Assembly: GCA_016928015.1 (NCBI GenBank)
Contig: JAFGLQ010000119.1
Span: 1-38,306, forward strand
DNA length: 38,306 nucleotides
DNA from: Dehalococcoidaceae bacterium
GTDB taxonomy: Bacteria; Chloroflexota; Dehalococcoidia; Dehalococcoidales; CSSed11-197
Direction: 5' to 3'
This document shows positions 19,285-23,910 of this stretch, in pieces (within the stretch, counting starts at the first letter, position 1; each line of letters opens with the position of its first letter). The notes under the pieces are model-generated. The model did no database searches. It was not told the origin of the DNA and saw only the letters and a list, made by a program, of their open reading frames with translations. The translations under genes were made by a program, and so were the position numbers.

Positions 19285-19317
19285 TATAGATTTGATGTAT
19301 ATTCGCCCGGAGGTGTC

Positions 19318-20178
19318 CTGGTAGGCATTATAAACCTCGGCCGCCTCACATTAATTTGTCTTGTCGTGATAACCGGTGCAAGCTTGTTAGCGTTAGCGGC
19401 ATGCGCTGCAGATCCGTGGCAACCTGAAAATATTTTTACATCTTCCCAAGAGGGCTCAACGGGAAATATCGCCAGAAATATTACTGCTATCGAAGCATTT
19501 AATCTGTTAAGCATCAATTCAGACAATCGCGACTTTGTAATTTTAGACATAAGAACGTCCGAAGAAAGGACTCAGGCCTACATTAAGGGGTCGATTTTAC
19601 TTGACTGGCATAGCGGCTACTCTCAGCAGATAATCAGCCTGTTGGATAAAAATAAAACCTACCTGGTTTACTGAAAAAGCGGTTTGCGGAGTTCTTCCGC
19701 TTTGGAGTTAATGAAATCTCTTGAGTTTAACGAGGTTTATGACTTACATGGAGGTATCGTCGCCTGGGAAGAGGCCGGTTTGCCTCTGGTAACTCCTGAC
19801 ACTTCAGGCAGTACAAGTGATCCCGCCACCACTTTGCCCGCTGCCACCAGCCCGCCTTCATCCAGCGACAGTAAAACACCGGCAAAATTTGCCGTCTCGA
19901 ACCTTCACACGGATCCCCCTGTGCCTGTCCCTCCCAGCGGCCTCTTCTCTTTCATTGTTACGGTTACCAACGAAGGTGGTGTTGAAGGTTATTATGAAGC
20001 GGTCGTTGAAGTGGTTGAAGTTATCGGTGTGATAAGGCTGGAAATTGGGAGTGTATCAGAACGCGTATTGATTCCACCAGGCCAGAGCAGAATCGTAACG
20101 TTCGAACAAATACATCTGACTCAGGGAATTTTCGAAGCAACTATCGAAAAGGAAAACCTGTTATTCGAATGCACCTGA
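19318..20178 (+). CDS. Putative selenocysteine-containing rhodanese-domain lipoprotein with C-terminal CARDB-like Ig domain (readthrough of TGA 19672-19674)
   Basis: In-frame halves 19366-19674 and 19684-20178 are separated only by TGA: ...VILDIRTSEERTQAYIKGSI...DKNKTYLVY[U]KSGLRSSSALELMKSLEFNEVYDLHGGIVAWEEAGLPLV. The TGA replaces the catalytic Cys of the rhodanese C-[KR]-S-G-x-R loop. N-terminal hydrophobic stretch with lipobox LAAC. The start is uncertain: an upstream CTG 19318 near GGAGGT would supply a full signal peptide; GTG 19366 is the ORF-track start. Confidence 0.7.
19672..19703 (+). promoter_or_regulatory. Candidate bacterial SECIS element directly downstream of in-frame UGA
   Basis: UGA + 11 nt, then GCGGA (19686-19690) / loop GUUCU (19691-19695) / UCCGC (19696-19700). 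Apical loop starts 17 nt after UGA with G in first position. Alternative stem AAAGCGG (19676-19682) / CCGCUUU (19697-19703). Confidence 0.55.
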
Positions 20179-22731: not shown

Positions 22732-23910
22732 GTGAAATTATTAGTTGTAGGTTGCGGGCAGGCCGGAGGCCGCATTTCTGACGAATTCGCCCTGCTTAAC
22801 AAAAAAGCGCGTGCCGAACGCGGTTTCGATATCATGACAAACATTCTTGCGGTAAACACCGACGTTGCCGATTTGAGTGGATTGTGCCACATAAAAGCCG
22901 ATTTTCATCATCGTATTCTGATCGGCAGCGGCAAGACTCACGGCCATGGTGTCGGCAAAATGAACGAAATAGGCGCTGCCATCGCCCGTGAAGATGGCGA
23001 TAAAGTTCTGGACAAAATAAGAGATACCAAGAACCTTCCCGAAACAGACGCTTTCATGGTTGTAGGCAGCGCTGCCGGGGGTACTGGTTCCGGATCCGTG
23101 CCCGTAATAACTCAGATTATTAAAGAACATTTTCCCGAAAAACCTGTATATAATCTGATTGCCTTGCCGTTCAAGTTCGAAGAAGTGACGGAGGAGCGTT
23201 CGGTTTACAACGTGGGCACGTGCCTTAAATCCGCTTACCTGGTCGCCGATGCTATATTCCTTGTTGACAACCAGCGTTATATCACCAAAAACGCTTCCAT
23301 GCGCCAGAATCTGGCCAAGATAAACCATGACATAGTCAAACCTTTTTACAACCTGTTATGCGCCGGCGAAGAAACCGATGTGAAATACATCGGTTCCAAG
23401 GTGGTTGACGGGGGTGATATTATCCAGACTCTTTCCGGATGGACAACCATTGGTTACGGCAGAACTAAAACTTCCGTAATGAAACTGCCTTTCAATAAGT
23501 CGGTCGATTTCCGAAGCAAAAATACTGAAGCCATGCCCGGAACCCAGGCTATGAACGAAGCACTGGGCGAACTGTCACTGAAATGTGAACCCAATGATGC
23601 CCGTAAAGCTCTCTATATCATTAATGCTCCGCCTGATGTTATGAGCATGGACCTCATCAAGGACCTTTCTGCCGCTTTGAGAGAAATGGCCCCGCAGGCG
23701 ATTATCCGCAGTGGCGACTACCCGAGAGGCAAAGGTTCGGTCGATGTGACAATTTTACTTTCAGAACTGGTCAACTCTCGTAAGGTTATGAGTTACTTTA
23801 CGAAAACCATCAGCTATATGTCTCACATACGCACTGAAAGAGGCTATATCGAAGAGCAGGAAAGGGGCCTTGCCGGCGCTTTCCAGGATATTCCATCCCT
23901 TCTTTCATAA
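22732..23910 (+). CDS. CetZ/FtsZ/tubulin-superfamily GTPase
   Basis: GTG start after GGGAGGAG. KLLVVGCGQAGGRISDEF (G1-like), RILIGSGKTHGHGVGKMNEIGA, VVGSAAGGTGSGSVPVI (tubulin signature GGTGSG), KPVYNLIALPF. Confidence 0.8.
   Translation: MKLLVVGCGQAGGRISDEFALLNKKARAERGFDIMTNILAVNTDVADLSGLCHIKADFHHRILIGSGKTHGHGVGKMNEIGAAIAREDGDKVLDKIRDTKNLPETDAFMVVGSAAGGTGSGSVPVITQIIKEHFPEKPVYNLIALPFKFEEVTEERSVYNVGTCLKSAYLVADAIFLVDNQRYITKNASMRQNLAKINHDIVKPFYNLLCAGEETDVKYIGSKVVDGGDIIQTLSGWTTIGYGRTKTSVMKLPFNKSVDFRSKNTEAMPGTQAMNEALGELSLKCEPNDARKALYIINAPPDVMSMDLIKDLSAALREMAPQAIIRSGDYPRGKGSVDVTILLSELVNSRKVMSYFTKTISYMSHIRTERGYIEEQERGLAGAFQDIPSLLS

Follow-up and report, generated by a model that had tools for sequence, protein, structure and literature searches.

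The window, a stretch of 38,306 nt, lies on contig C37 of a 1.6-Mb assembly (120 contigs, 92% complete, 1.8% contaminated) of a Dehalococcoidaceae bacterium. Near its middle lies a frame on the plus strand that is predicted to encode a lipoprotein with a rhodanese domain and selenocysteine (Sec) in the active site. The features are as follows.

19309..19313, plus strand: candidate ribosome-binding site GGAGG, read from the sequence, preceding CTG 19318
19318..20178, plus strand: entire predicted selenoprotein frame, closed by TGA 20176-20178, start CTG 19318 or GTG 19366
19318..19404, plus strand: predicted lipoprotein signal peptide, read from the sequence, ending in an L-A-A-C lipobox with its Cys encoded by TGC near 19402
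19522..19773, plus strand: rhodanese domain (Pfam PF00581, E 8e-15; top-ranking PDB structure matches include rhodanese folds)
19672..19674, plus strand: in-frame TGA on the catalytic Cys position, predicted Sec119 in the motif U-K-S-G-L-R-S (sequence, homologue alignment)
19686..19700, plus strand: candidate bacterial SECIS hairpin GCGGA-GUUCU-UCCGC, starting 11 nt after the UGA
19885..20175, plus strand: C-terminal Ig/FnIII-like beta domain following a Pro/Ser/Thr-rich linker (all-beta prediction, structure matches)

Reading frame, coding signal and domain architecture

The original prediction had treated the ORFs 19366-19674 and 19684-20178 as parts of one gene. Re-reading of the sequence places both in one frame with a gap consisting of TGA 19672-19674 and the codons AAA AGC GGT, and this TGA is the single internal stop between 19318 and 20178. 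Joined, the two ORFs yield one rhodanese domain as proposed. The Pfam match covers residues 69-152 with the TGA as residue 119, and the read-through protein passes the curated cut-off of the PF00581 profile (55.6 versus 22.2 bits). The UxxG active-site motif is present as U-K-S-G.

The frame remains coding beyond the TGA for 167 codons, including the second domain, in line with what had been claimed. Codon-usage scores of the gene frame are 0.07 upstream and 0.12 downstream of the TGA (dnaN as reference: 0.16), while all other frames at the locus score negative. As the scores are positive on both sides, the gene frame is not a chance open frame. It is the clearest case in the window of an in-frame TGA flanked by coding signal; no other scored equally.

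The start codon is uncertain since no ATG, GTG or TTG is found in frame upstream of GTG 19366, and a start at GTG 19366 would shorten the signal peptide. Between 19285 and 19366 there is likewise no ATG, GTG or TTG that fits the signal peptide. Perhaps the true start is CTG 19318 behind the GGAGG at 19309-19313.

From its sequence the window protein looks like a lipoprotein. A helix is predicted at residues 2-26, and a hydrophobic N-terminus with the lipobox LALAAC was read by eye, subject to the uncertain start. A lipobox also closes the signals of the two other TGA genes described below, a paralogue on contig C10 of the same genome (TAGC) and a gene of genome G055 (VAGC). The AlphaFold model has a mean pLDDT of 70.9, with values of ~78-93 in the rhodanese part, and residue 119 is located at the end of a strand immediately ahead of the active-site loop and helix. 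PDB structure matches comprise rhodanese domains and multi-domain GH3 enzymes. We read the latter as matches of the modelled C-terminal part to the FnIII-like region of these enzymes. A genome of the same genus encodes the C-terminal domain on its own, as a separate lipoprotein with 43% identity.

The catalytic codon in homologues and the downstream hairpin

Homologues were drawn from relatives and public genomes and aligned. TGA 19672-19674 occupies the column of the catalytic Cys, hence exactly the codon on which the stop had been proposed to fall. Over 138 distinct sites the codon is TGC in 95, TGT in 38, TGA in three, and TCT and AGT in one each, showing the expected alternation between TGA and TGC/TGT. 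TGA is carried by the window gene, the C10 paralogue (YLVY-U-KKGGRSASAM) and L024 of G055 (YLLY-U-KRGGRSASAM). G055 belongs to another family of the order and its tRNA-Sec scores 75.2 bits. The TGA is thus not unique to one assembly, but is also found in a diverged paralogue of the same genome and in a second family, in both cases in genomes with tRNA-Sec.

Upstream of the TGA the three TGA proteins are 35-43% identical to one another, compared to 54-64% downstream. The part behind the TGA is thus better conserved than the part in front, contrary to what a decaying frame would show. Most of the closest homologues among named records stem from MAGs of Chloroflexota, Dehalococcoidia or Dehalococcoidales; the underlying scan used a pattern with a Cys codon and could return Cys homologues only. 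No further TGA member was found by a class-wide profile search (393 genomes). A DNA motif combining TGA and hairpin retrieved only the two copies of the own genome from 400 genomes of the phylum and nothing from viral contigs.

In a tree based on 85 columns the three TGA genes and one TGT gene (L019) fall into one group with modest support (86/84). With so few columns the tree neither demonstrates nor rules out that the TGA state arose once (p-AU 0.30). L019 may represent a reversion from Sec to Cys, or the other genes may have gained their TGA separately.

The hairpin at 19686-19700 fits the published bSECIS rule. This model calls for a G at position 1 or 2 of the apical loop, at a distance of 16-37 nt from the UGA and in many cases with G or U as the next base (PMC13188914). 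Here the apical loop (19691-19695) starts 16 nt past the UGA with G first and U second. All three TGA genes share a perfect 5-bp stem GCGGA/UCCGC exactly 11 nt past the UGA; the loop is GUUCU in the window gene and GUGCC in both the C10 paralogue and the G055 gene. As these genes are related, they are not three independent tests of either the hairpin or the TGA. In the same fixed register none of 135 non-TGA homologues forms all five pairs, and two form four. In free RNA of the window segment the hairpin (-7.5 kcal/mol) is not the global minimum, as a competing fold reaches -8.5 kcal/mol. It becomes the best fold after excluding the first 11 nt as covered by the ribosome. Minimum folding energies compared to synonymous shuffles do not separate TGA from Cys genes; only the fixed-register hairpin test tells them apart.

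Selenocysteine machinery and interpretation of the TGA

The genome was searched for selA, selB, selC and selD, as had been advised, and all four are present in one cluster on contig C100 in the order selC, selD, selA, selB. selC was identified by Rfam RF01852 (70.8 bits versus a cut-off of 47 bits) and by ARAGORN as tRNA-SeC with anticodon tca. selB matches TIGR00475 with 349.3 bits. selD matches TIGR00476 with 362.6 bits and contains an in-frame TGA of its own (FSGUAAK). selA was recognised from its sequence and its position in the cluster. Contig C84 (L186, G000:C84) encodes a formate-dehydrogenase-like protein with an in-frame TGA in CARI-U-HSATV, corresponding to the classical R-I-U-H Sec site. 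Hence, the Sec system serves further genes besides the window gene. Sec machinery together with a Sec-containing SelD and formate dehydrogenase was reported for Dehalogenimonas alkenigignens (PMC4918011).

Translation as one selenoprotein, the core of the original prediction, is supported by the machinery, the TGA homologues in the Cys/Sec alignment, the conserved downstream frame and the SECIS-like hairpin, each of them a computational observation. We infer from these sequence features that the locus very probably encodes one extracytoplasmic lipoprotein with Sec as the rhodanese nucleophile, the UGA being decoded via SelB, tRNA-Sec and the hairpin. In such a scheme SelB and tRNA-Sec would let the ribosome decode UGA 19672-19674 as Sec, with the hairpin at 19686-19700 as the guiding element. 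The selenol would probably accept sulfur or selenium, or else serve as a redox centre with persulfide/selenosulfide chemistry, and membrane anchoring would place this chemistry on the external side of the membrane. The role of the Ig-like domain is probably to hold or dock the rhodanese domain.

Several other explanations were considered. The gene could be a pseudogene, i.e. a Cys rhodanese gene lately inactivated by a nonsense mutation from TGC or TGT to TGA. We regard this as very unlikely, given that a TGA is present at the equivalent codon in the diverged paralogue and in another family, that the downstream frame combines coding signal with high conservation, and that the register-specific hairpin is confined to TGA copies. 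On the other hand, one base change suffices to turn the Cys codon into TGA, and no close homologue exists in the same-genus genomes G001 and G003-G005, so that the gene may be dispensable. Slightly less probable still is a design of two proteins, with termination at the UGA and re-initiation at TTG 19684. Even though TTG is a legal start codon, there is no evident ribosome-binding site at this position; moreover the rhodanese fold would be broken within the active-site loop and the first part alone would be exported.

Some bacteria read through UGA by routes other than Sec, and the codon might accordingly be decoded as Cys, Trp or another residue, owing to a suppressor tRNA or a changed genetic code. 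We consider this the most improbable alternative, with next to no chance of being correct. UGA terminates six of 32 ORFs in the window, and since ordinary genes of the window end in TGA the code is unlikely to be changed genome-wide. Further arguments against this alternative, and for decoding as Sec, are the complete Sec system and the classical Sec genes of the genome as well as the SECIS-like hairpin 3' of the codon.

Relation to known Sec rhodaneses and a second family in the order

Sec rhodaneses as such are already known, and the window protein is almost certainly a well-supported addition to them. Reviews list several forms, two of which are UxxG (PMC13188914, PMC9312934, PMC1088965). 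No published report of the window protein itself was found. With these UxxG forms (forms 2 and 4) it has PF00581, Sec, UxxG and widespread Cys homologues in common, but it adds a predicted lipoprotein signal and the C-terminal domain; the comparison covers motif and domain. Form 3 (CxU; NF041203, rhodanese_LYCAU) shares the rhodanese fold and Sec in the active-site loop, whereas the window protein exhibits UxxG instead of CxU and scores 39.8 bits against a cut-off of 115. TsoB (form 5, NF045694), a fusion of rhodanese and DsbD, is likewise a rhodanese selenoprotein; the window protein lacks the DsbD part and scores 25.1 against a cut-off of 805. Cys rhodaneses of Dehalococcoidia (e.g. L019, L021, L061) are ~48-52% identical to the window protein within the domain. 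They carry the catalytic Cys where the window gene has TGA and lack a SECIS-like hairpin in that register.

The window protein contributes to the Sec rhodaneses a predicted lipid-anchored form with an Ig-like domain, from Chloroflexota. The window gene represents a clean case of a selenoprotein that gene callers and standard annotation would split in two; the Cys/Sec pairing, the machinery and the SECIS candidate with its conserved register all point the same way. As members with TGA and TGT are found on adjoining branches, the exchange of Sec and Cys is testable within one small group.

A second family of lipoprotein rhodaneses was found in the order by searching with P0002, from the gene adjoining the UxxG copy of G055. 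There L200 (3617-4207, minus strand), a lipoprotein rhodanese directly next to this UxxG Sec rhodanese, contains a pair of in-frame TGAs at a distance of two codons (FYUGUIDDGE), with a stable hairpin behind them. Members with CDU occur in G093, G031, G003, G004, G045 and on contig C11 of the own genome. The latter (L206, G000:C11:8791-9216, minus strand of the contig) is a lipoprotein rhodanese with FYC-D-U-PDDE (CxU); together with the two UxxG copies, the own genome thus has at least three predicted Sec rhodaneses. L204, L205 and L207-L209 are the CDU members in other genomes of the order. Further motifs are UGU in G055, UIU in G002 (L212) and SCAU in G046. Cys versions with CDC at the equivalent site (L210, L211) are found in G131 and G141. 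Apart from this family, two other genomes of the order encode NF041203-like rhodaneses with YCT-U (CxU; L196, L197), of which L197 scores 83.6 bits against the cut-off of 115.

This second family is the part that could exceed the ordinary. Tentatively, and with doubts prevailing, we raise the possibility that Dehalococcoidales possess surface-anchored selenium rhodaneses of at least two lineages, one UxxG and one CxU/UxU (CDU, UGU and UIU with CDC homologues), perhaps forming an undescribed extracytoplasmic selenium-dependent relay for sulfur/selenium or redox transfer.

Elsewhere in the window, 22732-23910 encodes a Tubulin/FtsZ-family protein that Pfam matches to the C-terminal domain of CetZ (E 6e-20). 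CetZ proteins are better known from archaea.
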